Shown here piece after piece: positions 1,428 through 43,318 of a DNA stretch of 64,000 nt (its first letter is position 1; each line of letters starts with the position of its first letter). A model generated the notes under the pieces. It worked only from the letters and a program-made list of their open reading frames with translations, searched no databases and was not told the origin of the DNA. Both the position numbers and the translations under genes were made by a program. The stretch comes from Cafeteria roenbergensis (taxonomy: Eukaryota; Sar; Bigyra; Bicosoecida; Cafeteriaceae), in NCBI GenBank assembly GCA_008330645.1, contig VLTN01000001.1, forward strand, positions 558,001 to 622,000. The letters are read 5' to 3'.

Positions 1428-4400
1428 GACTCCGAATGCCATATCCACGGCCAAGTATTCGCCATGGCTCTTCATCCCTCAGTGCCTGGTGGAGCAGTTC
1501 TACAGGACTGCCAACGTGTACTTCCTGGCCATTGCCGTGGTGCAGGTGAGGCAGGCGAAATGTGCTCTCGCGGCGGCAGCCCGCGGCGGCACGGCTCCTG
1601 GCCTCGCGGCCCGTGGGCAGCAGCTCGCAGCGCGCTCTCCGTTTTCAAGCAAGGCAGTCTGGCGTTCCAGGCGGCAGGGGGCCGCTGCGACGGGCGCGGG
1701 CGCTGGGCTCCATGCGCGAGGGGCTGCGGTTGACGACAGCAGCGAAGCTCCGCCGCCGCGCCCTCCCCCCCCCATCCTCCGCTCCTTTCCCTGCTTGCGC
1801 TTGGCCGCAGATTGTCACCGACCTCTCGCCTACGAACCAGTACTCTACTCTGGTACCTCTGCTTGCCGTGATCCTGCTGTCCATGGCCAAGGAGGGTGTT
1901 GAGGACTGGCGTCGCCACTCGGCGGATAGCACGTCAAACAAGGCGCCGGTCCGAGTGTTGCGCGCTGGCGGGTGGGCTGTTGCCGAGCGCCAGGAAATTC
2001 GGCCCGGTGACATCGTGGAAGTCCGTACCGACGAGCAGTTTCCAGCAGACTTGGTCATCTTGGCCACGTCGGCGCCCGACGGCAGGGCCATGGTCGACAT
2101 GTCCTCCCTGACGGGCCAAGAGCGCTGCGCAGTGCGCTCCGCCGTCCACCTCACGCAAGGATTGAGCAACGACGCCAGCCGGCTGGCCAAGCTTTCTGCA
2201 GGCGTCGTGATGGTCGCGCCAAGCGCCGACTTGGGCAGCGTGCACGGCCAAATTCACGTCTGGCCAGATGGCACCATGCCCCCCAAGTCTATCGACCTCT
2301 CGACTGCAGTGGACGTGCCCTGGTCAACCGTGACCACAGCCACCGGGCCGGTTTCGATGGAGCCCGGCAAGTGGACGACCGAGGCAACTCCTGGTGCAGC
2401 GCCGGCCGGCCCGGTGAGCGGCCCCGCGAGTGCGGCCGCGAGCGGATGGGTGGCGGAGCGGGCTGCCGCAGGCGACAGCCCGGAGCCCACCCAAGTGCTG
2501 GTTGGCGGCGATGACGTGACCGCGGCCCGCTTCGGGCTTGACGGGCACGTGGTTGAGGCGGTCGGGACCAAGCGCTTCGCGCCCCGAGGCAGCGAGCTGA
2601 GGGTCACTTCCTTCGTCGTCGGCGTAGCCGTCTTCACTGGGCCCTCGACCAAGATGGCCCTCTGCTCGGGGAGGGCCCGCAGCAAGCGGGGTCGCATGGA
2701 CGCGGAGGTGAACCAGTCGATTTGGCTGATTTTCACCCTCCTCTTCCTCATCACCGCTGGGTCCGTGGCTTTCCACTCCAACTGGCAGCGCCAAAACTCC
2801 GGCGCCATGCAGTACCTGACCTTCCTTGGCGAGACACGCGGCGCCACCGACGTCAGCCGCGCCTTCGTGACCATTCTCATCCTGTACAACAACCTCGTTC
2901 CCATAAGCCTTTACGTCACGCTCGAGATTGTGCGGTGGTTCCAGGCGCGGCGCATTGAGGGCGACCCGCACCTGCGCAGCGCCCAAGGGGACGCACCAGT
3001 TGCGCGCACGTCCAGCCTGAATGAGGACCTGGGAGAGGTGGACTTTGTCTTCGTGGACAAGACCGGCACGCTGACCGACAACAAGATGGAGTGCCACGCT
3101 GTGGTCATCGACGGCGTTCGCTTCGGCAAGGAGGGGGCCAGTCCGGCCGTCTCGTCCAGCTCGGCGGCCGAGGCTGGTGCGGACGCGCCGGCTGGGCCTG
3201 GTGTCGCGACGGGCGGCGAAGTTAGCATGACGCCAGAGCGGGGAGTGAGCCCCTTCGGTGCCGCCCCGAGGGACTATGCGTCGCCTGCTGCAGTCGAGAC
3301 TGGCGCGGCTGCTGGCCCCGCCAGCAAGGCGCCGGCGCACGCCCCAGCGCAGTCCCCCTCGCAGCGCACTCCATCTTCGTCCGGGGAATCCCCTCTTCCC
3401 TCTGTGCAGATTCCTCCGGCCGTGAGGTCCAGCTCGGGGCCTCAGACGTCACGCTCGGGAGCGGCCTGGGGCGACGCAAAAGCGGGCACCGGGAGCGCGC
3501 GCGGCAGGAGGGACTCGTTCGGACAGCGATCGGGCAGCGAGCCCGCGCTGCTTGCTGCGGCAGCCGCGGCGGGGGGCGTGGGGGCCGCGCAGGCGGCAGC
3601 AGCGCTCGCCGAGTTGGCCAAGCAGCGCCGGGCTGCCATGAAAGCGTCGCGCAGCGAGTGCCGCAGGGCGGGGGCGGCTCTGTTCGCCGCCCCCGTGGGC
3701 CCCAGCGTCACGGAGCACATCGATGCGGTGCCCTTTGGAGATAGCCGGTTGCTTGCTTTGCTCAAGGCAGGCGTGGAGGCAGCTCGCTTGATGCGGCTTG
3801 ACCCCGCCTCTGCGGCCATCTGCCAGCCCACGGACCTGACCGCGCAGGCCATGCTCTTCTTCTACGGGATTGCGCTGTGCCACTCTGTCACCAGCCCGAG
3901 CACGCCGACCACGTCGGTCAGCGCGGCTGCGCCCGCGGCGCCCTCGCTGCCCCCGTGGCGGCTCTACCGCTCCACGAGCCCCGACGAGCGCGCGCTCTTG
4001 CTCGCCGCCCGTGCCATGGGCTTCGGGTTCATCGGACGCCAGGGCAACAAGCTGGTTCTCGAGGTGATGGGGCAGGTGGAGACCTGGGGGCTGATCCACA
4101 CCCACCCCTTCTCGTCGACGCGCCGAATCATGAGCATTGTCGTGCGCTCGCCAACGGGCCAAGTCTTCGTGTTTGCCAAGGGCGCCGACTCGGCAATGTT
4201 GCCGCGGCTGTACAACTCCGACGTGGCTCGGCGAGAGGCGGCGCGAGCAGGGCCGCTGCCCACTGTGCATTCCGCGGAGGCCAGCATGGCGGAGCCCTCG
4301 CACAGCAGCGACGGAGTCCAGCCTGCGTACGTTGACGGCTTCGCGGGGTCGGACGGGTTGCTGTCGCCGATTCCCCACGAGGACTCTTTCCACGTCCGCT

Positions 4401-7400
4401 CCGGCAACCACCATGCTTCGGCGGCTTCGGCGGCCATCGACCCGCGCATGAGAGGGAGGCTGGCTGCCTCACCGGCGCTGCTCCCGCCCGCCGTGGCAGC
4501 AGGGAGCCTGCTGGAGGGAGGGTCGAGCCACGGCGCCTTGGACGAGAAGGAGCGGGCGTCCGCGGGGACCAGGACCCCGCAGACCTCAGCACCGTCCCCG
4601 CAGCTGGCTCCACGCGTTCACGTGGGTCACCGCTCGCGCACAAGTTCCAGCCCCGAGGGCCGAGGCCTCCACAGACCGGGCTCGGCCTCCAGTGTTTACC
4701 GACCCGGTTCCGCCTCCGCGGCGGCGGACCCGTTGCCAAGCATGGGCATCAACGCAACCTCGGACGCACGAGTGAAGCTCGAGAGCAGCATTGCGGACCT
4801 CTGGGAGGCGGGCCTTCGGACCATGGTCGTGGCCGCCAGGCAGCTGACTGCCGCCGAAGAGGAGGCCTGGAGGAGGGCGACGAGGACAGCGGCCGCTGCG
4901 TCCGGGCGAAAGAACAGGAGGCTCATGCAAAAGGCCGCCGACCTTGTGGAGTTTGGCCTCGTTGGCCTCGGCGCCACGGGAGTGCACCACCAGCTGCAGG
5001 AGGGAGTGCCCGAGACGGTGGAGACTCTGCGGCAAAGCGGGTGCCGCGTGTGGATGGTCACTGGCGACAACGAGGAGCCTGCAATTTCGGTCGCGCATGC
5101 GGCCGGAATGATCCGGGAGGCCTCCACGATTGTGGCTCTCAACGGCGACTCGCGGAGCAAGTGCGAGCACCAGCTGGCCACCGCTCGCGCGGAGCTGCGC
5201 AGCAAGGGGCGCTGGCACCCCAGGCTCGTGGACGACGGACTCGTGTGTGTCATCAACGGCGAGGCGCTCAGCCACATCCTTGCGCCGTCGCCCAAGGCCC
5301 GCCGGGCAGAGCATGAAGAGATTGCGCAGAGGCACCGGCGCCAGCGGCTGCGGAGCGGGGCCACGCCAGCCGATATCGACGAAGAGTCCGACAGCAGCTC
5401 AGACAGCGACGACGAAGCCGCGGAGGAGGTGGTTGGCTCTGGGGCGAGCTCGAGGTCGGCTCGCATTCGACGGTCGGGGGGGCTTTGCGGCAGAGCAGGT
5501 TGCTGCAGGGGCTCGAAGCGGCGGCGAGCCAACCGGAGCGAGCGGGTCGGTACCGATTCTCACAACGCAACGGACAGGGAGAGCACCACCCCTGACACGT
5601 CCGTTGCGACTGGGGGTACGCCAGCCTACGGCAACCTTGACGGCCTGGCGGGTGGCAGCCTCGACGACCCCTCCTGCGTGGCGGCGTGCTTCTGCGCTTC
5701 CCGGGGGTGCTTCTGCTGCTGCTGCGCCGCAGAGTCGGCTTCCTCCTTGAGGGCAGGCCGGCGCACGATCGTCCGGCAGGTGTCTGAAGGAGCGGTGTCG
5801 GCCGGGGACTACTCTGCGCGAAATCTGGAGAGCGCCGTCGGGGCGACGAGCACTTGCCGGTCCGAGGACGGCGGGCACACCTCCCAGCCGACCTGCAGGT
5901 GTTGCTCGCGCGAGTGGGTGTGCTGCCACAACCTGGGCAGCGCCCACGGCCGCCTCTTTGGGTCCTCCAATATCGACCAGGGCACGTTTATGTGGTGGCT
6001 CCTTCACCCGGTGATTTGGTTCCCGCAGTGGCTGACCGCAGCTCTTGGCATTTCAGATGTGACCCTGGAGGCGGAGCCGCTTCCCCGCGAGCGCCGGCTC
6101 CTGGAGCTGCTCAAGCAGTGCCGGACTGTGCTTGCCTGCTCCATGACGCCGGCGCAAAAGGCCCAGCTCGTGGCGACAGTGAAGAGCATGGTCAGCCCCG
6201 GCCCGGTCACGGTCGCGATTGGGGACGGGTCCAACGACGTGGCTATGATCCGCGAGGCGCACGTTGGAATCGGCGTCACTGGAGGCGATTGCACGCACGC
6301 AGTGCGGTCCGCCGACTTTTCAGTGCCGACCTTCAAAACGCTGGCGCCGCTGATGCTGACGCACGGCCGCCAGAACAAGCTTCGCACGAGCCTGACAATC
6401 CTGTACAGCTTCTTCAAGAACGTGACCCTGGTGTTCACCCTGCTTCTCTTCTCCAACCTGTCGGGCTACTCCGGGACCACGCTGTATGAGTCCTACCTGG
6501 GGGCCGGATGGAACGTCGCTTGGACGTTTTTCCCAATCCTCGCCATCGGCATCTTCGACAGCGACTTGTCGCGCCAGGCGTCAATGAGGTACCCAATCAT
6601 CTATCGGCAAATTTTCCGCGGCGCCGCCTTCAGTGTTCGCTCTCTGGCCTGGTGGGTGGTGCAGGGTGTCCTCTACGCCGGGGTGGTCACGCTGGCGTCG
6701 TACGCGATGTTCGAACATTCGTGGGTTTTGTCCGACGGCACTGCCGCTGGCATTTGGCCGACCGGGGCCGTCGTCAACCTCATCCTGGTGGTGCTGGTCT
6801 CCGGAAAGCTGGTCATCCACATGCACTCGTGGTGCTTCGCGACGCTAGGCAGCGTGCTGCTGAGCTTCCTCCTCTGGTTCGCCTTTGTCATCGTCTACTC
6901 GGTGCTGTATACCGCCACGGGCCTCTCCGCTACCCGCGACTTTTCGTCGGTGGCACTTGTGCTCATGCAGCAGCCACTGACGTGGTTGGGGCTGCTCCTG
7001 CTCCTGGGCACGGCTCTGGCCCTCGAGCTGGCTACCCACCACCTCCTGAGGCAAGTGTGGCCGACCTCGCTTGCCATCCTGCAGGAGTGGGACAAAGGCC
7101 TGGGCACCCCCGAGAGCGGCGACCTGGTTGCCAGGGCGGCCGAGGCCCACCGAAGCCTGGCCATCGCCAAGGAGCGCTCCCGGGCGCTGAAGAAGGTCGG
7201 GGGGGGGTACATGCTTTTGCAGCAGTCGAAGTGGTATGCTACTGAGCAGATGGAGGCCATTTGGGACGTGGAGGCGATGGGCGATGCGTGGAGGCCGTCG
7301 TCTCGCAAGGCGCGCGCCTCGACGCGGCCAGGAAAGCACCGACACGTGATCATCGGGCGCCTCCAAGGGGCCTCGAATTCCGGAGCTGCCGAAATGTCCG

Positions 7401-10400
7401 TGACGGGAGGGAAGGTCTTGAGCATGGAGGAGCACCTGCGCCAAGTGGCGGCCATCGAGCGCCTGACGAGCAAGGTGGTGAACTCGCAGCGGCTGCTCTG
7501 GAACGCCCTCCACAAGCGGTGGACCCGTCGCAGAGATCCAAAGCGGCCGCACCACCGCTCCTCGAGGGACGCGGCGCACCGGACGGCAGCCGTCGCGCCG
7601 GCCGCTGCAGCCCCCGTTCCGATCTCCTCCGGTCCGGTTCCGCAGGCTCCTCAGCTTCCATCCAGCGGCCAAGCCGCGCGCTCCAGCGACGGAATGAAGC
7701 TGTCAAGCTTCCACGCTTCGGACGAGCCCGCAGCGTCGCACGTGCAGAGGTCATCTCGCGGCCTCACCGTGCCTGCGTTCGTGGCCCGCCAGCGGCTGGC
7801 GTTTGCAACGCCCGCGGCGGCCCGGGACTCCACTGTGAGCCGAGCCTCGGACCAGCGACGCACCTCCGCCATCGAACAGTCCGACGGGTACACTCACCCG
7901 CAAGGGAGCGGGACGACGCTGTCCCATCGGCCTGGCCAGCGCCAGAAGCGAGGGTCCGTCGTGCTGGCGCCGGCATGGACGGCTGGCTCAGAGGGGCAAG
8001 TACTGGCGAGAGCCTCCCGGGCTGGGGGCGCTCAGCTCCGCCAGCACTTTCGCGAGATGCAGCAAGCGAAGGCATCGGGGGCGGAGGGGCTCGCGCTCTC
8101 GCTGGAAGACTCAGCCGCCCCGCGCGTCACGCGGTTCACCCGGCAGTTTGCCGACGACCCGGAGCTCGAGCGAGCCTACCACTTCCGCTTCTTCCTCGGC
8201 AAGAGCCTGCCTGTGACCCGCACGGGTCTGCTGATGGCTTCGGCGCTGGGAGGCGCGTTCATCATCTACGAGTACTTTGCGTCCGTTGCCGGCTTTGGCG
8301 GGTTCGCGAGGCGCCCACCCGCCAAAGCACTCACGACGCTGCTGCTCCGGATGGCGCTGGTTGTGGGCGCCCTCCTTGCTGTGCTCTTCACCTACACGAC
8401 GACCTTCCGTCGGAACCACAACTCCATCATGTTCGCGCTTCTGCTCATCACTGGGATTGCCAAAACTGTCATCGTCTCAGACGCAGGCACGTTCGGTCAG
8501 ACGCTCTACACGATTTGCGTGCTCCTCATCCTGCGACTCTCCTTTGCCTCGGCTGCCGTGCTGGCGATTCTCGACCTCGCCATTTTCACGGCCGCAGTCG
8601 GCGCCAACCTGGTTGGCGATGGAGTTGCGTCGCTCATCGACTACATTCCCTACGCAGCCTTCGTCCTGGCCTTCGGCCTGAGCGGCGCTCTTGCGATCGA
8701 CGAAGCAATGCGGCAGGACTTCCTGCAGCAGGCTCGCCTGGCCGCTGAGAAGAAGAGCTTCAACGATATCCTCAAGAGCTCCATGCCGCCTCACGTGACG
8801 AAGAAGCTGAAGCGCATGGAGCTCGGCGGGTTCAGGGGCAAGTACTACGACAAGGAGGAGGAGATCTCCGTCATCTTCATCGACGTCATCGACTTCGAAA
8901 AGGTCACTTCGTCGCACACGCCGCAGATGATGGTCACGCTGCTTGACCGGCTCTGGCGCCTCTTCGACGCCCTGGTCGAAAAGCATCTGGTGACAAAGAT
9001 GGAGACGGTGGGAAAGACGTACATGGCGTGCGCCGGCCTGCAAAAGTCGCGTTCGGACCATGCGGCGGCGCTCGTGATGCTTGGCCTGGACATCCTCCAC
9101 AACCTGCGGTCGTTCAAGGACAAGGACGGGCGGCGCATCATCTCCGTCAAGATCGGCATCCACTCGGGGCCAGTGGTCAGCGGCGTCGCGGGACTGAAGA
9201 AGCAGCAGTTTTCGCTGTTCGGAGACACCGTCAACACCTCGAGCCGCATGCAGAGCTCAGGGGAGCCCAACCGCATCCACATCTCGCCGGCCACGTACGC
9301 CCTCGTCGAGGGCCTGTTCGAGACGGAGGCTCGCCGGACCCCTGTCAAGTCCAAAGGCATCATGATCACGCACCTCGTCCAGCGGGTGGCCAACTCTGAC
9401 GAGGCGATGAAGCGGAGGAGGGCGTCCGCCCTGGGACTGGCGCCGCTTCTCGCGGGGCCCTCGAGTCAAGCCACCGGTGCCGCGGCAAGGGCTGCTGCCA
9501 CACGCGCCGCTGCGCTCGCTGTCGCCCAAGCGTCCCCAGGCGCGGCGGCGTCTGGCAGGCAGATCGTTGCAGTCGCGGAGGCCGAGCCTGCTCGGCCCTC
9601 GGCCCGCCTCAGCAGGCACGGGAGCAAGACCAGCAGGAGCGAATCACCGGGCCAGCTTGCGAAGCGCACGCCCTCGCGGACCTCCCTGCCCATGGGCGTC
9701 CAGCGCATGGCAATCACGGAGGGGAAGCTCGATTCGGCCGGCGATCTGGCGGGCCCCAGCGAACCCCATTTGGAGCACGTCGACTCGCCGAGCGCCGCCG
9801 ATGCAGAGACCCCCCGCGCCGGTGAGGACGGCTCCGTGACCGCTGGCACCCAGCCCGAGGCTGAGAGCCGCAGGCGCGAATCCCGCTTCAGCATTGTCAA
9901 CTGGCTGTACGTCTTCAGGGACAAGGAAGTGGAGCGAGCCTACCAGGTGAAACGGCGGCGGAGTCAGCTGTCGAACATGCGGACAGCCGGCCTCGTCCTC
10001 GGCCTCTTCGCCATTTTCCGGGTGCTGTGGGACGACAGGGCGTCGGAGCGGTCTCGGATCCTGCGCGTGGCTTGCGCGGCCAGCATGTTCGTCGCAGCCA
10101 GCCTCACGGCTTCCAAGATTGTCCGGCGCATCCCGCCTGCCCTGCGCCACTCCATGGTTGCGCTGCTCTTCGCCGTCGCAGGCTGCCTCCTCGCTGCGGC
10201 ACAGGCCAACTCTGCGCAGGTCACCCTCGACATCGTGTTCTTCACGTCGCTCTGCTCTGCCAGCGGCGCAGTTCACCACTTGGGGGCACTCTTTGCCAAC
10301 CTCGTCGTCGTTTCCTTTGCGCTCGGCATCTCGGCAACGAACTCTCTCGACTTTGCCGGCGGCGACTCGCTGACCGGAACGGCAGCTTTCTTTGCCGGCA

Positions 10401-17615: not shown

Positions 17616-19254
17616 ATGGCTCGCGGCGCCTCGATCGAGGAAATCACGCGCGAGCAGCTCAACGCTCTCAAGGACAAGTTTGAGCTGGTGCAAGGCGACC
17701 GGCGCGCATTCTTTGACACCTATGAGACGACCAAGAAGAACAACGAGGTGAGGGCCCCGATGGCGCGGGTGGGGGCTGCGTCCGGAGCAGCGGTCGGAGC
17801 GGTTGCCGGTGTTCGAGTCAGGCGCGCCGCCGGCCGCCTTGCCTGGGCGGGCTCGGTGGTGGGAGGTGGGCGTCGGCCGCTCCAGCTCGACAATGCGAGC
17901 GACAGAGGCGCGCGTGCTCTTCCAGAGAGCTGATGCTCCAGGCTGCTCGGGGAGGGCGGCGGTGGAGCTCGATGCCTTGCGGGCGCTCGCGCTGACCTCT
18001 TGTCGGTGCCTGTTGCTCGACACCGCTGGCGATGCGCAGGAGCTCCTCGGCGAACTGAGGAGGAAGAACAAGAGCCTGAGGGACGAGCTCGGCTCGGCGC
18101 AAAAGACGGCAAAGGAGGCCCAGCTCCGCCGAACCACTGGCCGCGACGCAACCAAGGTGTCCGCGCAGCTTCTGGCAGTGCGCTCGCAGCACGACACGCT
18201 GCGGCACCGCGCCAAGCAGCTCACCAAGGACTACAAGCGGCTGCGAGACGAGCTGCAAGTTCTTACGCGTGAAGAGTCCGCGCAGACGCGCGACAATCCC
18301 GAGGCCCGCCGCATCCGCGCCCTCGAGAACCGGCTTGACAAGGCCATGATCAAGTTCAACGAGGCCCAGTCCATCAGAAAGACGTACGACCAGATCGTGC
18401 GCCGCCTGCGCGAGGAGCGGGTGGGCTTCGACACGCAGCTGACGGCGATCGAGAAGAGCCTCCGGGCAAAGAAGGCCGACCTCGAGGAGCTGCGCCAGCT
18501 GGCGCAGGAGGCCAACCACGCAAAGGACGTCGCCCTGGCAGAGCTGGAAAAGACCAAGGCGCTTGCCCTGGAAGAAAAGGAGAAGCGGCTCAAGGCCCTG
18601 CGCGAGAAGCGGGGCATGGCAGCGGCCCGCTCGAAGATGAACCAGACGGTGCGCGACCGGGAGGCGCGGCGGGCGGACAGGGTCAAGGCTCTGCACGGCG
18701 ACATGGACGAGCACCAGGAGGCGCGCCTGCAGGCCAGCGTGGAGGACCAGGCGCGGGAGCAGCAATCGCTTCACGACCAGGCGGCCGAGGCCCGGCGAAG
18801 CGTGGAGCGCTTCGAGGAGGCGTTCCAGAAGATCCGCGAAGCCACGGGGGTCAAGGACGAGAACGAAGTCATTCAGAAGATCGTGTCCCAGAAGGAGCAG
18901 TACCACTCCCTGCAGCAGCTCTCCCGGGACAACGCCCAGCGCATCGAGGAGCTCCACCGCGAGGAGACGGAGCTCAAAGAGCACCTCGACGCCCTCAAGT
19001 TCTCGGGAGGGGATGGCCGCGGCGGCAGCAGGCAGCTCATCGACAGCCTCGACGCGCAGCTCAAGGCCACGCTCAAGTCCCTCGCCGGGGCCAAGGACCG
19101 CTCGGACCGGATTGCGCGCACCCTCATCGAGCTGCGGGCCGGCGCGGCGCACCTTCGAGAGAAGGTCAGCGGCCTGCGCCGCGAGCAGCAGGCGATGGGA
19201 GTGGCGCCAGCGGAGAGCCGGCCGAGCACTGCGGCCTCGGGCTCCTCCGCGGCA

Positions 19255-19286
<32 letters not shown>

Positions 19287-20058
19287 TGGCAAGGACTCCG
19301 GCGGCGGGTCTGCCGTGGCGGCCGCGGCGGCCGAGAGCGGCGTGCTGCCGGACCAGGCGCTGGTGGACCTGGAGCACAGCGAGGGTGTGCTTGTGGCGGC
19401 GCTCGCGTATCTGAAGCGGTTCGAGCGACAGTTCAAGCGGCAGGCCGTGGCCGACGCTGCGGAGGGAGGGTCGGCATCCGCCCTGGAGCTCCCCTCCGCC
19501 GTGGCGCGGGCACTCACGCATGTGCCCGAGGGCAGTCTGCCTCGCGACGGGGCCGGCGTCTCCCTGGGAAGCGACGTGGCTGCGCAGCTAGGCCTGGCCG
19601 AGTCCGACGTGTCGCTTCTCCGCGCCCACAACTTGCGCGTTCCCGTCCGTCACGTTGCGTCAGTCAAGTCGCCCATCGTGAAGATCTTTTCTGCGGACGG
19701 AGATGCCCAGGAGGCCGCTGCGGGAACCAGCGCTGGCAAGCCGTCGGCAGCGGCTGGCTCCGCGGACGAGAGTGCAGGCGCCCCCACCTCGCGCTCGGCT
19801 GCTGCTCACAGCGGCGCAGGGGCTCCCAGCGGCCGCGGAGCGGCTGGGAGCGCCGGCCAGTCTGCGGCGGCCGGGGACGCTGACAGCGACGGGGACGATG
19901 CCGACGACGATGCCGCCTACGTCGACGACTTCGAGGCTGACGCCGTGTCCCACGCGCAAGTCAAGCGCGAGTCGACGCAGGCGGTCAAAGCCCAGACGGT
20001 GCGCTCCAAGGCGCGCACGGGGAGGACAAACACCGAGCCCGCGCGGTACCTGGAATGA
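17616..20058 (+). CDS. ODAD3: Outer dynein arm docking complex protein ODAD3/CCDC151 (ODA10-like)
   Basis: Exon 1 is 17616-17747 (44 aa, ending KKNNE at GTGAGG) and exon 2 is 18040-20058 (starting ELLGEL), in phase 0, for 716 residues. Almost the whole protein is heptad coiled coil. The diagnostic segment reads NRLDKAMIKFNEAQSIRKTY, followed by QIVRRLREERVGFD and EANHAKDVA, which are hallmark CCDC151 sequences. In animals and algae this protein helps dock or assemble outer dynein arms on axonemal doublets. The C-terminal third is low-complexity with a run of Asp-Gly dipeptides (19258-19290) and an acidic patch near DSDGDDADDDAA. Together with DNAL4 it is the strongest evidence for a motile flagellum in this organism. 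Confidence 0.88.
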
Positions 20059-29448: not shown

Positions 29449-32400
29449 TCAGCCTGTCGGCCCTTTGGCCGGCTTGAGCGCGATGTCGCACCCCTGCAGC
29501 ACATTTGCCACAAAGTCGCTGAACCGGGATGCATACCTCTCCGCGGGCACGGCTGACACGTCGGCGCTGCGGCCCAGGCGCATCAGCTGCTTGAACCTGT
29601 GCTCGATCTTCTTCCCCAGGTCGTACTGCTGCAACAGGTCCACGATGCCAATCTGCGCCACGACCTGCACGCTTTTCCGAGCAGGCACGCTGGGGTCAGG
29701 GCGCCACTCCGGAATCTCGCTCACAACTGCCGAGAAGGACGACCAGCGACGTGGCGGCCCGCCCGCGTTGAGGGGAGCAGGCCCTGCGCTCTGCACCTGC
29801 GCGCGGCATCCATCCGGGACGGGCGAGATCGCGAGGAGGCAGGAATAGTCCATGAGGCCGTACGTGCCCAGCAGGGTAACGTCACGGATGACCTGCGAGA
29901 CGATCTCGGAAGTGAGACGGGGGCTGGCGAGCGGGACGCCCTTGGGCGCCATTTCCCGAAAGTCTTGGTCGAGTCGCAAGGCCCCCTTTGGTTTGGCCTT
30001 GCCCTTCTTGGCGCCGTGGGAGTCGTCCCCGGCCGGCTTGGAGCGGCGGCCCACCGTTGAGCCCTTGAGGTCGAAGACCACCGATTGCATTCCGAGGTTG
30101 CCGAAGGGGAAGGAGTTCTGCATCACAAGGCAGTACAGGGGGCCAACGCCGCGCACGTGCACCACGATGAGCGCCAGGAAGCGGCAGAGCAGGGAGTCGG
30201 GGTTGACGTCGAGGTGCTTCAGGTAGGCGGGCAGCAGCGAGGCCAGGGCCTCCACTTCGTCCCGCTCGATCGTCTTGAGGATAATGTCGTCGTTGACGCT
30301 CCGGCAAAAGAAGGAGCGCGAGGCGCCGTGGCTGAAGTGCGCTCGTAGCTTGCCCTCCTGCATCAAGGCAGGGTCGAACGCGCTGGCGAGCTGCACGCCC
30401 CCGATGCCCATTCGGGCGCGAAGCTTGGCAAACGCCTCGTCCTCGATGCTCTGGACTTGGAACTCATCCATGACGCTGCTGCGCCGGCGGTCGGATCTGC
30501 GCGGTGCCGCGGTGAACACCCGGACGCGCGGCGGGTCCGAGGACAGCAACGGCGAGCCGCCCTCGTCGACGGACGAGCCGCTCGACTGCCGGCTGAAGCT
30601 GCCACGCCCATCAGCGCCGGCTCCGAGGAGGAGAGGCTCGTCCAGGTGCATTGAGCTGTCGGTGCTGTCGCTGCGCTGCCCGAGGCCGCCTGGCGCCGCG
30701 GCGGCCGGGCTGCCGCTCCCGCGCCCACGCCCAGGATGTTGCAGCGTGCCAGTCTCGCCGGCCCGCCCCGCCCTGCTCGCCTTGGCCGTGTGGCTCTTGT
30801 GCGAGCGGCTGCCCCGGTGCCCCAGGCTGCGACGGGCGCCCCGCTCCGAGTCTTCGCCGCTTGTCGTGCTATCCTCGCCCTCGACCAGAATGGGAACGCC
30901 CGCCGCCCTTCCAGCGCCTGCCATCGAGCCATTCAGCGTCATCGAGACCAGGGACCCCAGAGGCGGCTTGTACCGCGTCGAGAGGGCGCGCCGGCGCTTC
31001 TGGCGCCGACGGGAGCGGAACCTCCCGCTCGAGCTGGCCGCAAGCAGCGCGTCGTCCTCGGCCGCCTTGACTGCCGCAGCGTGCGCCACCTTTCGCGCCG
31101 CCCTCTGGAACTTCTTCGACGAAAAGTTGGACAGCATGGAGAAGCGTCTGCGCGCCGTCGCGGGGCGCTTCAGCAACTCGGCAAAGGACTCGACCTTTTC
31201 GGGCGGGGGGAGCGGACCCGGAATCACGGCCGAGCCGTCCCCGGCGCGGCCGAGCGACTCAGTGCCCCACCAGCCAGACGCGCCGCCTGCCCCAGACGCG
31301 GGAGCCGCACCCTGGGCCGCAGCGCTCGAGGGGCCAGCCGACTCCTTGCCAATCGAGGTCGTGCTGCCAGGCCCGAACGACTGCCCTGATGCGAGCCGCC
31401 CACCGCTGGACAGCGCCGAGTCTCCCAGGGCCAGGCTGACGCAGGGCGCCTCCTTGTGCGCCGGCCCGCGTCGAGCAGCCGCGTCCTTGGCCAGGCCGTA
31501 GTCAAGCTCGGCCACGAGCACCGTCTGGCATAACCCGCTCAGCACGCACAGGCTCAGCTCCCTGCGCAGCGTCGCGCCGACGTCGAAGCCCTGCAGAGGC
31601 TTGGGCGACTCGGGGCGCTTCATCCCTGCCATGGCGGCTGCCGCGGCCGCAGACGCCCTCGAGTCTGTCGGACCCGACTTTTCGTCTGGGAATGGCGTTT
31701 CTTGGCTGAGCTTGGACCGCCCCGGAGTCGCGCGCTGCCCGGGCTGGCCGGGGAGCCCCCCCTTTGCGCGAAGCTGCGCGGCCGGGGCGCCCGACAGGGT
31801 GCGCATTCGGTCCCGGACCCAGCCTGCTTTGGGCTGTGCAGAGCCCCGGTGAGGCGTCGTCATCCAAGCGCCGACGCGCTCCCCCTCCTCTTCAGAGTCG
31901 TCGCTGAACCCGGCATCGCCAGTGACGGGCTGTCCGGCATCAGTGCCTTGGGCGCCTCGGCGGTCGGAGGCTGCAGGCGCGGAGCGGCCGCCCGGCCACC
32001 CGCCCAAGGAGTCCAAGGCCGCCTCGGTGGCCTCTGCCTCGGCCGAGGCCTGCGATGCTGCCGCTGCCGCCACTGCAGCCCAGGTTTGGGCCGGTGACGC
32101 CGGGTGGTCGTCCTCGTCGTCGCCGTCGTCTCCGAAGGCAAGGTCCACTCCCGCGAGCACCCACGACCCTGCTGGGGTCGGCTGCGCCCTGCTCACCAGG
32201 CTGGCAGGCAGGTTTGGCGCAGGGAGGAGCAGCGGGCAGCCACCATGCCCGGCGACCGCGGCCCGCCGCGCTGCCAGCGCGGCCTCTTGCTCGCCCACGG
32301 CCCGCGGCGCGCTCCAGCCCAGTGGAGCGGCAGCGGCCGTGATCAGGTCCTCGATGAACGGGTTGGCGCACCCAGGGGCAAACTCGGAGGCCGAATTGGA

Positions 32401-35238
32401 CCGAAGGCGAACGATGGACGAGCGCACCAGCGGGGTGTGAGTCGCCACGATCCGCAAGCGGCGGTGGGGCGGAGGACTGCCGGGAGAATGGGGCGCGCGG
32501 TCGGCAGGGGCACGGCTCGCCTGCTTCCCGGGCCGGGCGCTCCCTGTCGCCGCGGACGACTCGCCCAGGCTCAGCGCGGCCCAGCCGCCTCGCGGCACTG
32601 ACGTCGCACGGGACGGGCGGGGCCACACCATCCAGGCCGGGGCGTCGGGGCCCGCTTCCGGTTGGGGCAAGGCGTCCGCCTCTCCAGCTCTGCGCGCGGC
32701 GTCCGTTCCAGCGGCCGAGGGCGCTGGACCGGGCGCGTCGCTTGCACGGCGGGACGGGGGAGCAGGCGGCACAGAGCGGCCGAGCGGTCTGCGGGAGGCA
32801 GAACCAGCTGCCGTCAGCGGCACGGCGCCGAGCGCGCGCTGGCCGCCGGCCCCCACGCTTGCCTCGCCGTGGTCGCTGGTCTTGCACACCAGGCTGGCCT
32901 CGATGGCGGCATGGGAGGGCGGTGGAGCTCCCGCGGGCAGCGCCGGGGCGACGGCAGGCCCCGCCTTGAACGGCAGAGGCCGCGAGGGGGCCGGAGCGGG
33001 ACCACGGGCCTCTGTGAAGGAGCCGTACCCGCCCCCGCCGCCGCCAAGCAGCGAAGTCCTCGGAGACGCTGCACTGGCAGCCTCGCCCCAGTGAAGCTGG
33101 CCCCCTGCAGCAGCAACGGCAGCTCTCGAGGCAGCGAGCGCAGCGTTGGCTGCCGATGTCCCCGGAGCGGCTAGCAGGTCCCCGGCGCGCGAGAAGGCGC
33201 GGCTGCTCGAGCGGCCGGGCTGTCGCAGCCCAGCGCGGCCGGGGCGCTGCGGCAGGGTGCTCCTCGTGGCCAGCTTGCTAGCTCCCATGGCTCCCTCTCC
33301 TGCTGGAGCGTCTGCTGGTGCGCAGGGCCGGCCCTCGCCTGCGGCGCGTCGCGGTGATGCTGCTCCCCGGCGCTCGTCGGCGCCGCGCCACGCAGCCAGT
33401 CCCCCGCTGCGCAGCAGCCCTGCGGCCCGGCGCACCGCCGCCAGCTCCGCCGCAGCGTCGATCTCGTCGGCGTCCTGGCCGCCCTCCGAGCCATCCCCGT
33501 CCGCGCCTGCCTCCGAAGCCGCAGCAGCCGACAGGAGCGCGACGGCAGACGCCTCGCCGCTCAGCCCGGGCCAATTCACCCGCTCTGGCGCCCCCAGGCT
33601 GGCCCAGTCGCTGCTGTCGTCGGAGCTGTCGGCCTCGTCCCCCGTCCCACGGCCTGCCTGGCTGCGGGCCTGGCGCTCCCCGCGCGCACGGCCCCTCAGG
33701 CTTGGGGCTTGGGAGGACCCGAGGGCCTTGCCGAACTCGATCTCAGGGAGACTGACCCCGCTGAGCGACGGGCCCCACCCCGGGGCGTCTTGCTCCCCCG
33801 TTGCTGCCGCCATGGGCGATGCCGGGGGTGCCAAGCCGGCGGCAAACGACTGCCGGCTGCGGAGGAAAGAGTCAGCGCGAACGGGCAAGCCGCGGCGCCA
33901 GCCGCCGCCCCCGAAGCGGGCGCCTTCCAGCCTCATACTGCTTCTGGCTCGGGCGATGCCCTCGGCGATGAGGCGGGAGTTGTGGGGCTGCTGCTGCGGC
34001 TGGCGGGTGGATGCGCTGCGAGCGTGGCGGCGAGGGGGCTCGTCGTCGTCACTGCTACTGCTGCTGCCACTGCTGCTGCTGTTGCGGCTGCTGTGGCTGC
34101 TGTGGCTGCCGTGGCTGCCGCCAGAGCTGTCTTGGCTCCCAGCCCTGGCGCGACCGTGGCCGTCACGGCGGGTTGCCGGACCGCCAACGCCGTCTGTGCC
34201 GCCACCAATGGCCTCGTAGTCGCCAACCGCTGCCAGAGACACCTTGTGCCCGCCCCGCCTTGCCGGCCCGCACAGCGTGCACGAGCATCGCTTGCGCAAG
34301 CGGCGCAAGCGGCGCCGGCAGCGGCGCCGGCAGCGCTCGTGGTCCCTGCCGCAGCAAGCACGCCGGCACCTGCACGTGGCAGCAGCGACCAAGCGCCGCA
34401 CGCACTCGCGCCCAAGAGCTCCCAGCATCTCCACCATGGCTGCGGCCGCCCCTGGCTCGCGCAGCCTGATGAGCGACAGCGCAAAGGCTTGGCCCGAAAC
34501 GGTGAAGGCGTCCACATAGGTCACCCACATTGTGTCCTCCAAGAAGTGGTGCACAAAGGGCCAGGCCCACATGAATGCGAACGTCGCCACGTAGGTGAAG
34601 TGACGCCAGAAGATGGCGGCGCGCAGCGACCGGGTCATGCGGGTGCCTGCAAAGAGGGTGGCCCTCAGCGCAAACAGGAGGCTCCCCACAGCCAGCACGA
34701 GGTAGAGTCCCACGATGAAGTCGAACAGCACCAGGTTTGCAGAGTCCGCGCGCACCCAGCAAGTGTGGTCCGCCGACTGCGCTGGCACCCCGGTGGCCCA
34801 CACGTACACGGCCGTGCCCACACTGGCGCTCCATACGAAGATGTGGTACCAGACCATGTGCTTCCTGGTCGAGGACAGCGGCCTCGTGATAGTGATCACC
34901 AGGTCGACAAGCCAGCAAGCGTTCCAGGCCACGATGGCCGTCGAAAGCAGCATTCCGTACACCGCGCTGGAGAGGCAGTTGTCTGGGAAGATGTGGAAGC
35001 TGTCGCGCTCGTCGCGCAGTCCCATGTGCCACGAGACAGCGCCGGCCACGAATTTCACGGTGTACAAGAGGTCGCAGATGGTGATGATTTGCACCATTTT
35101 CCCGAGCTGCTCTTGCCTGAGGCGCTTGTCCCACCAGAACATTCCAAGGACAAGGAACCCGCCAACAAACGACAGGCAACCCGTGTACAGGTGCACATCC
35201 ACGATGCTGTCGTACGTGCTCGTGTCATCGCTCGCCAT
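29449..35238 (-). CDS. GPCR-phosphatidylinositol phosphate kinase fusion (RpkA/GPCR-PIPK type)
   Basis: An uninterrupted frame of 1,929 residues. Seven hydrophobic helices lie in the first about 265 residues (VGGFLVLGMFWWD, IITICDLLYTVKF, VYGMLLSTAIVAWNACWLVDL, WSASVGTAVYVWATG, FDFIVGLYLVLAVGSLLFAL, ATFAFMWAWPFV and a seventh), with the layout of a Dictyostelium-type cAMP receptor-like GPCR. A Cys/Arg-rich juxtamembrane stretch and about 1,300 residues of low complexity follow. The last 290 residues are a PIP kinase: ILKTIERDEVE, LLCRFLALIVVHV, VFDLKGSTVGR with the DLKGS motif, catalytic TYGLMDYSCLLAI and metal-side GIVDLLQQYDLGKKIEH. Such fusions are known in amoebozoans and oomycetes, and would couple ligand sensing to PIP2 production at the plasma membrane. 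Its start faces the TIR-STAND-SH2 gene. Confidence 0.88.
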   Translation of the reverse strand: MASDDTSTYDSIVDVHLYTGCLSFVGGFLVLGMFWWDKRLRQEQLGKMVQIITICDLLYTVKFVAGAVSWHMGLRDERDSFHIFPDNCLSSAVYGMLLSTAIVAWNACWLVDLVITITRPLSSTRKHMVWYHIFVWSASVGTAVYVWATGVPAQSADHTCWVRADSANLVLFDFIVGLYLVLAVGSLLFALRATLFAGTRMTRSLRAAIFWRHFTYVATFAFMWAWPFVHHFLEDTMWVTYVDAFTVSGQAFALSLIRLREPGAAAAMVEMLGALGRECVRRLVAAATCRCRRACCGRDHERCRRRCRRRLRRLRKRCSCTLCGPARRGGHKVSLAAVGDYEAIGGGTDGVGGPATRRDGHGRARAGSQDSSGGSHGSHSSHSSRNSSSSGSSSSSDDDEPPRRHARSASTRQPQQQPHNSRLIAEGIARARSSMRLEGARFGGGGWRRGLPVRADSFLRSRQSFAAGLAPPASPMAAATGEQDAPGWGPSLSGVSLPEIEFGKALGSSQAPSLRGRARGERQARSQAGRGTGDEADSSDDSSDWASLGAPERVNWPGLSGEASAVALLSAAAASEAGADGDGSEGGQDADEIDAAAELAAVRRAAGLLRSGGLAAWRGADERRGAASPRRAAGEGRPCAPADAPAGEGAMGASKLATRSTLPQRPGRAGLRQPGRSSSRAFSRAGDLLAAPGTSAANAALAASRAAVAAAGGQLHWGEAASAASPRTSLLGGGGGGYGSFTEARGPAPAPSRPLPFKAGPAVAPALPAGAPPPSHAAIEASLVCKTSDHGEASVGAGGQRALGAVPLTAAGSASRRPLGRSVPPAPPSRRASDAPGPAPSAAGTDAARRAGEADALPQPEAGPDAPAWMVWPRPSRATSVPRGGWAALSLGESSAATGSARPGKQASRAPADRAPHSPGSPPPHRRLRIVATHTPLVRSSIVRLRSNSASEFAPGCANPFIEDLITAAAAPLGWSAPRAVGEQEAALAARRAAVAGHGGCPLLLPAPNLPASLVSRAQPTPAGSWVLAGVDLAFGDDGDDEDDHPASPAQTWAAVAAAAASQASAEAEATEAALDSLGGWPGGRSAPAASDRRGAQGTDAGQPVTGDAGFSDDSEEEGERVGAWMTTPHRGSAQPKAGWVRDRMRTLSGAPAAQLRAKGGLPGQPGQRATPGRSKLSQETPFPDEKSGPTDSRASAAAAAAMAGMKRPESPKPLQGFDVGATLRRELSLCVLSGLCQTVLVAELDYGLAKDAAARRGPAHKEAPCVSLALGDSALSSGGRLASGQSFGPGSTTSIGKESAGPSSAAAQGAAPASGAGGASGWWGTESLGRAGDGSAVIPGPLPPPEKVESFAELLKRPATARRRFSMLSNFSSKKFQRAARKVAHAAAVKAAEDDALLAASSSGRFRSRRRQKRRRALSTRYKPPLGSLVSMTLNGSMAGAGRAAGVPILVEGEDSTTSGEDSERGARRSLGHRGSRSHKSHTAKASRAGRAGETGTLQHPGRGRGSGSPAAAAPGGLGQRSDSTDSSMHLDEPLLLGAGADGRGSFSRQSSGSSVDEGGSPLLSSDPPRVRVFTAAPRRSDRRRSSVMDEFQVQSIEDEAFAKLRARMGIGGVQLASAFDPALMQEGKLRAHFSHGASRSFFCRSVNDDIILKTIERDEVEALASLLPAYLKHLDVNPDSLLCRFLALIVVHVRGVGPLYCLVMQNSFPFGNLGMQSVVFDLKGSTVGRRSKPAGDDSHGAKKGKAKPKGALRLDQDFREMAPKGVPLASPRLTSEIVSQVIRDVTLLGTYGLMDYSCLLAISPVPDGCRAQVQSAGPAPLNAGGPPRRWSSFSAVVSEIPEWRPDPSVPARKSVQVVAQIGIVDLLQQYDLGKKIEHRFKQLMRLGRSADVSAVPAERYASRFSDFVANVLQGCDIALKPAKGPTG

Positions 35239-35592: not shown

Positions 35593-38500
35593 ATGGCCGC
35601 TTCGCACGAGGCCCGCGCCGTGCCGAGCGTACCTGGCGCTGGCGACGGCCGGGTGAAGCGGGAGATTTTCCTCAGCTATGGCCACGGCGGATATACGCAG
35701 CTCGTGCGCCTGGTCGCCCAGGGCTTGCTTGAGCGCGGTGAGCCGCGCATTATCCGGCAGCCTCGCGCTGCGTGCCGGCCAGCGCTCATGGTGCACCCTG
35801 CACTGCTGGCTCTCACAATCAACAGGCGAGTGGCCGAGGTGGCTGGCCCGTGTTGTTTTTGGCGCCCTCAGGCCACACCGTCTGGTTTGATGAGCTCGCG
35901 CTGGAGGTGGGACACAAGTGGGCGGACAAGATGTCCGAAGGGCTTCGGGACGGGGCAGGCGCTAGCAACAAGCTGGTGATTTTTTTCCTCGACTACTATG
36001 CATGCCGGAGGGACGAGGACAACATGCCGCAGGCAAGGGGCAACGGCTTTTGCGTCAACGAGATGGCCATTGCGTCGACTACCGAAACTCCCTTGCTCGT
36101 TGTGGCGCTGGCCGATGCGCACCCTCCGGCTCCCCTGTGTTTCGAGGACAAGCTCTGCCTCGATGTCCGGGACGTGCTCGGCGACCGCGACCTGAGGCTC
36201 CAGGACGGATACGAGGGGGCAGCTTTGGACGCGATCACAGCAGCGCAAGCGGCGCCGGAGGAGGAGCTGTTCAGGCGGTGCGACCTCGGCTCAGTTCCCA
36301 ACCTCGCCTCGGCGAAGGACGTGAGCGCTGCTATGGCCGCCTACTTTTTGCACAGGCCGGGGGCCATTTCGGTTGTCCGCCGCATCGTTGACATGGCTGG
36401 CCAGCCAGACCCTGTTGGGGGCATTGGCGAGGCTGCCAGGCTGCTTGGTGCCAAAACGACTGTCATTAGGCACATCACACACTACAAGCGCGAGGAGCCG
36501 CGCGAGCCTGCGGCACCCGGGCTGACGACTGGCCCGAAGCGGCGGCTCTTCATCGTGGGAGAGAGGGGCGTCCAGCCGCTGCTGCTCAGGCTGCGAGATG
36601 CGCTGGTGGCGCGTGGGCACGATGCCAAGAGCATGCACTGCGATGCCGTGGCCGGCCGCGCGCTCGACTCGGCGGACGCTGCCGACCACGGCATCAACTG
36701 GGCGACGGAGCGCAAGGACGAGTGTCCCGGGATCCTCCTCGTGCTCATGTCGGACGGCTTTGTGGAGCCGAGCGGTGACATCATCGCCAAGGCCAACAGC
36801 TCATTCTTGCCAGTGGTTCCGTTGCGCGTGACCACTACCTGTGTTATGCCGATCACTCTCATTACAATTCAATACCAGGACTTCGTCCCCGCGGTTGCCG
36901 GCGCAATCGAGGATGGGTCGTTCGAGGTGCACGCTGCGTTCGACCACTTCGCAGAGCTGCTGGGCACGTCTCTCGACCAGGGCTTGGAGTTGCACGACCA
37001 GACCAACGCCGCGAGACGTCGCGTGGAGGGGCTGTTCAAGCCCCAGGCAATCGGAGCCGAAATCGCGCGGCACACCCTGTTCTGCGGCCGGACACTGCTC
37101 AAGGCAGAGGTGGAAGCCTGGAGACTTGCCCCGACGAGCGCCGTGGTGAGGGTGTACGAGGGGCACCTGGGCTGCGGCAAGACGGCTCTGGCGAGCCACC
37201 TTGCTCGAACTTGGCCGTCGGTTTGGGCGCTTCAGGTTGCGGCTGGCGCCCCTGACCTCAGGGGCACTGTCCTCAACCTCGCGTTTCAGCTGTCGTCCCG
37301 GCTGGTCAAGGGCCCATCCGTGTTTCTGTTCAATAGCGACGGCTCCCGGCGCCTGTACCGCACCGCCCTGCACTCGGGCGCGGAGGGGCCTGAGCCGGCG
37401 AGGACCGCAGAGCTCTCAGAGCTGCTTGCCAAGGCCGACGTCGAGACTCTGACGGCAGAGCTGTTCGCGGCGTGTCTGGCCCCGCAGTTGGCGGCGCTGC
37501 CCGAGCGGCTCCGCGCTGCCAGTCCGGTGGTGTTGGTGGTGGACGGTCTCCACAGGATCCGGGTCGACAACAAGCCGAACCGGGGGCTGGTCCTGAAGAC
37601 GCTGGAAGCCGCCGCAAGGGGGGCGAGCAGTGACGGGCTGCAGGTCCGCGTACTGGCGCTTGCAGACGCAGGCCGAGGCCTGTTGCATGCGGCAGAAGGT
37701 TCTGCCGCGGCGGCAGGGGCTGCCACGCCGACTTGCAGTCGGGGTTCGCCAGGGGCGGCCGTGCTGGAGGGTGCCAGTGTGGAGTTCGACCGCATGCTTG
37801 GCAAGGACGGCTCTCCGCGCCGAGACGAGATGGTGCAAGACATCCGGCAAGCCGTCCTTCAGCGCCTCGCGAAAGCCGCGGGCGTTGCGCACAGGGCAGG
37901 CGAGGCAGCCGGCGGCCTGGAAGACATGGCAGCGCGCATATGCGCAAAGGCAGGCATGGACTTTGCCTGGGCCACCGAGCTGGCGCAGCACGTGGCGGTC
38001 GCTGGCAACTACGGCGACCTTCCCGAGCTTGAAGCGCACCACAGCCGCAGGTACGAGGCCATGAGTGGGATGCTCGCAGAAGCGGGGTTGGCGGAGGCAG
38101 GCAAGGCCCTAGTCAGCGCGGTGGTACACAAACCAGACGATGCCGAGTTTGATTTGCTGTCCAGGGGGGTCTTGAGGCGAGTCATGTCTGGGATAGACGA
38201 GCAAATGCTCGTGCAGGCGCTGTCGCCGATGTTTTATCTGCGCGGCCCAAGGCACATCGTGACGCCAGTGGCAGGGGAGCAGCAGCTCGCCTGGCTCCGC
38301 ACCATGTCGGCGTACGACAGCGAAGGCAAGCGCTTGTGGGAAGCGTGGTGCATGCGGGTGCTTGAGGATGCGGACAGAGGGTGCAGCACACCGTTCGAGG
38401 TGGACCGTGAAGCCGTGGGGAGGGCAGCGGCGGCGGAGGTTGGCGGAGCGCTCGCCCTGCGCCTCGCGGGAGAGCTCGTCCAAGGCGCCGGCTGGGACAG

Positions 38501-38882
38501 TTTTTCAGAGCGCCTCTCCAAGGGCCAAAAGTTCGCCCTGCTTGTTTCCAGGATGCGTGGCCAGGCGGACAAGTTCGCAGCCATTCACGAGTGTCTGGGC
38601 CGCGACGACGCCAGGTCCAAGCTGCGCGAAATGGGCCCCGGCTCGTTCTTGATTCGCACAAACAGGCAGCGCGACACTGTCGTGTCGAGCTACCCCGGAG
38701 AATCCAACTCGGACAACCGGATGATTTACAAGCTTGAGTCGGGCAAGTACGCCATCAAGCGGCCCTCTCGGACCGTGCCTCTGACGGCACATGACATCTT
38801 TGACGACTTGCCTGCACTGCTGGCATACGCTCAGCTGGAGGGAATGCTACCGAACCAAATGCTTGCCAGGCCATCTGCGTGA
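35593..38882 (+). CDS. TIR - TIR-like - STAND ATPase - SH2 protein (NLR-like)
   Basis: Exons 35593-35737 and 35872-38882 (donor GTGAGC, acceptor CCTCAG, split Gly codon) give 1,051 residues. Splicing restores a TIR domain at about residues 22-150: REIFLSYGH, LLERGHTVWFDELALEVG, LVIFFLDYYA and FCVNEMAIA. The usual NADase Glu position seems to be Ala (WADKM). Residues 271-365 look like a second, degenerate TIR fold (RRLFIVGERG, LVARGH, ILLVLMSDGF). A P-loop EGHLGCGKTALA (Lys485) and Walker B VVLVVDGLHRI (Asp606) define a STAND/NACHT-like ATPase. After a helical region, residues about 950-1045 form an SH2 domain: GRDDARSKL, PGSFLIRTN with the phosphotyrosine-binding Arg977, MIYKLESGKYAI and DIFDDLPALLAYAQ. 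Together this is an innate-immunity-type switch without LRR or WD repeats. The spliced intron and flanking host genes show it is not bacterial contamination. Ligand and partner are unknown. Confidence 0.82.
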
Positions 38883-42880: not shown

Positions 42881-43318
42881 TCACACACGAGCGCCAGCGG
42901 AGGGGGCATCTTCATTCACCACACGCACCAGCTCCACCTCCACCAGCAGGGAAGCGCACGGCGGCGAGCCGAACCGGCCGTAAGCCAGGTGGTCCGGAAG
43001 CACCAGCGCGCGGATGCCGCCCTCCCGCATTCCCACGACGCCAGCGTCGATGCCAGGAGGCACCATCCCTTCGCCGACACGGAAGGAGAGCGGCTCGCCT
43101 GATTGGTACGTGCACTCCAGCAGACGCCCGCTGTCCGCTGCGAGAGCAGAGTACTGCACCTCGACGCTGCTGCCACGAGCGGCAACGCGCTCCCCGCCCC
43201 CGACCTTGCTGTCCCGCGCCGCTAGCCCCCGCCCGAGGTCTTGCCAAGCCGCTTCGGTGCTCAGCGCCCGGCGCGTCCAGGCCAGGGTTGCCAACGAGGC
43301 CCCCTTCCGCACAAGCAT
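42881..43318 (-). CDS. FKBP-type peptidyl-prolyl isomerase with predicted mitochondrial presequence
   Basis: A single exon of 145 residues. The first about 30 (MLVRKGASLATLAWTRRALS) are basic, serine-rich and free of acids, as in a mitochondrial presequence. The rest is one FKBP domain: VEVQYSALAADSGRLLE, PLSFRVGEGMVPPGIDAGVVGM, REGGIRALVLPDHLAYG and LLVEVELVRV. FKBPs catalyse cis-trans isomerisation of X-Pro bonds. The core VPPGID and AYG elements are present, but FKBP12's active-site Trp position is not Trp here, so catalytic strength is uncertain. A plastid target peptide cannot be excluded. The gene diverges from metaxin, another mitochondrial gene, over 192 bp. Confidence 0.85.
   Translation of the reverse strand: MLVRKGASLATLAWTRRALSTEAAWQDLGRGLAARDSKVGGGERVAARGSSVEVQYSALAADSGRLLECTYQSGEPLSFRVGEGMVPPGIDAGVVGMREGGIRALVLPDHLAYGRFGSPPCASLLVEVELVRVVNEDAPSAGARV

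Follow-up and report, generated by a model that had tools for sequence, protein, structure and literature searches.

A TIR domain, a STAND-like P-loop core and a C-terminal SH2 domain in one candidate receptor gene of Cafeteria roenbergensis

A gene of the flagellate Cafeteria roenbergensis encodes a protein of 1051 amino acids, in which an N-terminal TIR domain (TIR1) is followed by a second alpha/beta-looking unit, a P-loop NTPase core, a mostly helical-looking region and a C-terminal SH2 domain. The gene covers positions 35593-38882 on the forward strand of the window, the whole stretch of 64,000 nucleotides analyzed here (contig C1, 558001-622000; genome of 36.3 Mb in 167 contigs), and consists of two exons separated by a single GT-AG intron. 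We propose that its product is an NLR-like receptor with the SH2 domain as sensing or recruiting end, the ATPase as switch and TIR1 as output, and with a non-catalytic paralogue as partner or decoy; we give this reading an even chance. NLR-type proteins usually end in LRR, WD or TPR repeats. Judged from its sequence, the receptor would work like an NLR but is not filed as one of the TIR-NB-LRR type.

Exon 1 (35593..35737) encodes residues 1-48 and ends one base into codon 49; it comprises the front of TIR1 and is modeled identically in another strain's NCBI entry. The 134-base intron (35738..35871, phase 1) lies within TIR1 between LLERG and HTVWFDE. Exon 2 (35872..38882) is one open frame until the stop and contains the remainder of TIR1, the second unit, the P-loop core, the helical part and the SH2 domain. 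The NCBI model FNF27_00553 from the other C. roenbergensis strain, labeled as TIR-domain protein in UniRef, also has 1051 residues, four of which differ from the spliced protein. Because of this identical length and the few differences, we regard the gene as real, splice included. Moreover, a relative with 57% identity (P0002) carries an extra 38-residue stretch exactly at the position of the intron, which is read as a retained intron. Checking of splice and translation placed the intron and the key residues K485, D606 and R977 exactly where an earlier note on this DNA had put them. That note had described a TIR, a second TIR-like unit, a STAND ATPase and an SH2 domain in one gene. TIR1, the STAND-like P-loop, the SH2 domain and the single exon 2 frame were recovered, but the TIR identity of the second unit is unproven, and the observation is therefore graded as partly confirmed.

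The assignment of the SH2 domain (38574..38846, residues about 950-1040) is solid, although the window sequence alone scores weakly. With the Pfam SH2 model, the window protein and P0002 reached 18.5 and 19.9 bits, respectively, under the cut-off of 21, and the paralogue exceeded it with the highest score of the three (23.6 bits). The assignment is solid because both relatives carry an SH2 domain at the same C-terminal end, the paralogue over the cut-off, and because profile and fold agree. Each of the 45 PDB sequences that a profile of the three SH2 sequences found at E<=0.01 came from an SH2 protein (best E 6.4e-9). Furthermore, the C-terminal end folds as an SH2 domain, and its structural matches were all SH2 among the matches listed. 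The SH2 domain with intact R977 claimed earlier is thus backed by relatives, PDB profile and fold. The computational checks on whether the end is not an SH2 domain or belongs to another gene came out in favor of the claim, as shown by the SH2 fold, the uninterrupted exon 2 frame from TIR1 to SH2 and the SH2 domain at the corresponding end of both relatives.

SH2 domains bind phosphotyrosine. R959 (38601..38603), the FLIR arginine R977 (38655..38657) and N997 (38715..38717) occupy the alpha-A2, beta-B5 and beta-D4 positions, which we take to be the usual phosphotyrosine contacts. Two of these three contacts are present in the window SH2, R959 and R977, both invariant in the three SH2 domains. 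At beta-D4, asparagine replaces the histidine of both relatives; the histidine of the three-SH2 profile aligns with a histidine of CRKL. Comparison with P0002 revealed the highest identity in TIR1 (residues 23-160, 112 of 138 positions, 81%) and the lowest in the SH2 region (residues 946-1051, 46 of 101, 46%). The linker (57/103), the second unit (92/151), the P-loop core (131/207), residues 651-735 (42/84) and residues 736-945 (126/210) lay in between. This gradient would fit a constrained output and a drifting recognition end, and, coming from one sequence pair, it shows no selection. N997 and the low identity of this region are also what one might expect of a structural SH2 domain, one that retains the fold solely for contacts between proteins and does not bind phosphotyrosine. 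We consider this very unlikely, given that three divergent copies all have R959 and R977 and that both relatives keep the beta-D4 histidine.

TIR1 (35665..36173, residues 25-149, intron inside) matched Pfam TIR_2 with 36.3 bits (E 9e-9), over the curated cut-off of 28. Among PDB sequences three bacterial TIRs were found with E-values from 2.3e-4 to 6.8e-3, one of them the NAD(+) hydrolase AbTIR; the matches reach over roughly the first 57 residues in the searched piece. The glutamate of the C-x-x-E motif (E112 of FCVNE, 36060..36062) was invariant when TIR1 was aligned with two divergent TIRs, one from the metagenomic protein P0003 and one from a further TIR gene of Cafeteria. E112 is a candidate NADase residue, its position presumably being that of the catalytic glutamate of TIR NADases, and TIRs with this glutamate can hydrolyze NAD+. 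The TIR domain named in the earlier note is well founded on the TIR_2 score and the retained E112. Elsewhere in the genome, a TIR gene (C1:628888-632208, TIR_2 2.5e-20), whose TIR lies about 8 kb past the window end, appeared SARM1-like by eye, with an ARM-like front and a SAM-like end. A partial TIR_2 match of 25.8 bits, under the cut-off, lies at C31:51568-51768; by eye, the long frame around it contains membrane-like stretches.

The second alpha/beta-looking unit (36534..36896, residues about 270-390) is possibly a degenerate TIR. It lacks the C-x-x-E glutamate and had no match in Pfam or among PDB sequences. Residues 340-526, a stretch that is partly STAND, align with E 4e-7 to the C-terminal half of the P0003 TIR running into STAND, through Walker A. 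A TIR profile comparison with hhalign gave 8.6% and E 0.0039 over 30 columns only. Nine shuffle tests, with 1000 shuffles each, gave mixed results. The score was reached by 1 of 1000 shuffles for the second unit of the paralogue against P0003, by 25 and 27 of 1000 in two tests against TIR1, and by 113 to 774 per 1000 in the six remaining tests (297 of 1000 for the window protein's own second unit against P0003). Since the C-terminal half of the P0003 TIR aligns onto it, there is a hint that the second unit might be a decayed TIR directly before the STAND part.

The P-loop NTPase core (37056..37676, residues 444-650) scored under the curated cut-offs of NACHT (25.0 bits, E 1.8e-5; cut-off 26.7), NPHP3_N (22.8 bits, E 1.1e-4; cut-off 24.8) and AAA_16 (24.2 bits, E 5.4e-5; cut-off 32.6). 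Among PDB sequences it reached an E-value of only 0.23, and it aligns with the NPHP3_N core of P0003. Because all family scores are under the cut-offs, this NACHT/NPHP3-like core is classed as STAND-like only. The lysine of Walker A (GHLGCGKT, K485, 37161..37184) is kept in P0002 and lost in the paralogue, and the Walker B aspartate (D606, 37542..37544) is common to all three proteins. The P-loop ATPase core described before thus holds with regard to K485 and D606, both present and kept in P0002, but its STAND/NACHT profiles stay below the cut-offs. STAND ATPases switch via nucleotide exchange and oligomerize. One NACHT domain over the cut-off was found in the genome, at C2:1115110-1115631 in an open frame of 4658 amino acids.

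The region between NTPase and SH2 (37908..38561, residues 728-945) is mostly helical-looking, judged by the secondary structure in a model of very low confidence, and had no family match. It could hide diverged repeats; a search for C-terminal repeats yielded no Pfam repeat family at E<=1. The full-length structure model (pLDDT 32.7) is unusable and gives no domain arrangement.

A genome search with the window protein gave four matches. Two are its own exons, and the other two fall on contig C36, where a paralogue is encoded on the forward strand (C36:185500-193500, about 2985-7468 therein). It has a degenerate TIR1 and Walker A and an intact SH2 domain. The paralogue corresponds to FNF31_02360 and FNF27_06026 of NCBI, with the UniRef name 'SH2 domain-containing protein'. 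Its phase-1 GT-AG intron lies at a place equivalent to that of the window gene. This intron is independently supported by the NCBI models, which splice at the same place but take a Met inside the first exon as their start. By reading, the first unit of the paralogue is devoid of TIR motifs and of the C-x-x-E glutamate. The lysine is missing from its Walker A (GYGRSS), and Walker B is kept. The paralogue record P0004, which is without most of the first exon, showed no TIR_2 match. FNF27_06026 has 1167 amino acids compared with 1379 and misses a middle stretch including Walker B. From these residues, one copy of the gene pair looks active and the other looks like a pseudo-enzyme.

An expanded, diversifying family, such as many immune receptors form, was not found, as the genome search with the window protein brought up one paralogue. 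In the searches for relatives, only the 8000 candidates with the most words in common with the query were scored, the words being taken from the first 500 residues. The C-terminal end of P0002 as query (3079 candidates, E<=10) returned only P0002. The absence of further relatives means little, because this search missed even the window protein, which is 46% identical there.

Both SH2 and TIR serve generally as adaptor domains, and together with the single paralogue this would suit a scaffold rather than an immune receptor: a signaling protein recruited by phosphotyrosine (in phagocytosis or surface sensing, for instance) that uses the TIR for protein contacts and the P-loop as switch. That the window protein and P0002 have retained E112 and the Walker residues points instead to an enzyme with a nucleotide switch. 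Choanoflagellate TIR proteins with SH2 domains, listed without a tested role (PMC6040629), speak for the scaffold, which we nevertheless hold to be unlikely. That both paralogues keep the SH2 domain at the same end and one loses the catalytic motifs raises the thought that the SH2 domain may serve the pair itself. It could bind phosphotyrosine within the receptor or the paralogue and lock the receptor, which would then be activated by dephosphorylation. Nothing here separates such autoinhibition from the recruiting model, and we judge it distinctly improbable.

The Pfam SH2 model detected one place in the genome, the paralogue, and the paralogue SH2 as query detected two, the paralogue and the window gene. 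As far as found, all SH2 domains of the genome, counted outside the Spt6-type SH2 family, would therefore sit in these two genes. The genome counts are lower bounds, because the Pfam TIR, NACHT and SH2 scans do not list the window gene among their matches (the intron interrupts its TIR, it scores low for NACHT, and its SH2 was missed as well). Scans with PF01582 and NPHP3_N gave no match at E<=0.001.

A plausible phosphotyrosine writer and eraser are predicted in the same genome. PF07714 had 146 matches; at 30 of these the loci were inspected, 28 fitting the kinase motif pattern and two more being read by eye. One kinase (C33:215055-215711), preceded by a SAM-like stretch by eye, contains HRDIAARN and GPIRWLAPE, motifs that we take to be tyrosine-kinase-like. 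Among the best 60 of its 1786 PDB rows, 58 were tyrosine kinases by name and two were CTR1, which is modest evidence because the PDB is rich in tyrosine kinases. It is a possible tyrosine kinase in a stramenopile, or may belong to the TKL group instead. Matches to the PTP family numbered four; each was partial and exceeded the cut-off, and two had E-values barely below 0.001.

On the reverse strand of the window, a divergent neighbor (29449-35238) has its start some 350 bases away from the receptor gene. It has a PIP5K end (3.3e-48) and a front that looks by eye like a membrane part of several helices, presumably resembling the GPCR-PIPK proteins of oomycetes and Dictyostelium. An FKBP-type peptidyl-prolyl isomerase (2.6e-16) is encoded at 42881-43318, also in reverse. 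In 2-kb steps the GC content of the window ranges from 65% to 76%, and a strong AT skew (0.25), larger than in any other step, occurs at 18001-20000. Published Cafeteria assemblies comprise 34-36 Mb with about 70% GC (PMC6972860).

According to our preferred reading, the NLR-like receptor, the protein is probably soluble, and its SH2 domain would bring it to a tyrosine-phosphorylated partner or be released by one. Engagement of the partner would let the ATPase exchange its nucleotide and oligomerize, and the clustered TIR1 domains would then hydrolyze NAD+ or signal otherwise, with defense or cell death as output. The C36 paralogue, in which the SH2 domain is kept but the TIR1 motifs and the lysine of Walker A are gone, might act as non-catalytic partner or decoy. 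Consistent with this reading, P0003 shares the TIR-STAND layout, K485 and D606 are conserved in P0002, and the genome encodes a tyrosine-kinase-like domain and partial PTP matches. Against it speak the ATPase scores below the cut-offs, the insecure TIR identity of the second unit, N997 in place of the usual histidine, the possible TKL nature of the kinase and the single paralogue. Ligand, oligomerization, NADase activity, immune role and the pairing of the two copies are the parts of the scheme that we infer. A bolder version is tentative and in our estimation somewhat unlikely: the only SH2 domains found would be used in a TIR-STAND-like pair, one copy with catalytic residues and one pseudo-enzyme, and a kinase of host or invader, by phosphorylating tyrosine, would directly gate TIR NADase signaling.

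The gene offers a candidate receptor for a cultured, virus-infected flagellate, a free-living marine organism and a host of the giant virus CroV. It joins a domain of the phosphotyrosine-reading type, at the end where repeats are usual in related receptors, with TIR/STAND signaling in one protein, so that tyrosine phosphorylation may feed into TIR signaling in a single-celled organism. Moreover, with an active-looking and a pseudo-enzyme copy, the pairing of receptors could be tested outside plants. We take C. burkhardae to be the same organism as C. roenbergensis. The former name is used in later papers (PMC8547959, PMC10945749), one of which states that protist antiviral defense mechanisms 'remain unknown', with virophages as one candidate; the passages of this work at hand mention neither TIR nor NLR (PMC10945749).

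The closest matches of TIR1 in the PDB, AbTIR and other bacterial TIRs, are without STAND or SH2. P0003 (TIR_2, NPHP3_N, TANC1-type, HEAT) resembles the window protein in having a TIR followed by STAND (TIR1 alignment 3e-19), but it has one TIR and ends in HEAT repeats instead of SH2. The earlier note knew of no described protein with this domain order. A TIR-STAND-SH2 architecture was indeed not found in the open-license literature among the matches listed, but TIR with SH2, with no STAND mentioned, is known from multiple choanoflagellates (Richter et al. 2018, PMC6040629). Like the window protein, these come from single-celled eukaryotes and combine both domains in a protein that has no transmembrane part; in contrast, no STAND ATPase is named in the part of the source compared, by description only, and they belong to another supergroup. 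SH2 domains also occur on choanoflagellate and filasterean myosins (PMC3942036). In the TRADD-N expansions of sponges, immune-type proteins with SH2 as one variable C-terminal option, Death-like and TRADD-N domains stand in front, and the section on them contains no TIR-STAND-SH2 protein (Kaur et al. 2021, PMC8195603). Plant TIR-NB-LRR and red-algal TIR-NB-WD40 proteins resemble the window protein in having a TIR at the N-terminus and a STAND-type P-loop ATPase behind it, but they end in LRR or WD40 repeats, whereas the Cafeteria protein ends in an SH2 domain (PMC7145615).
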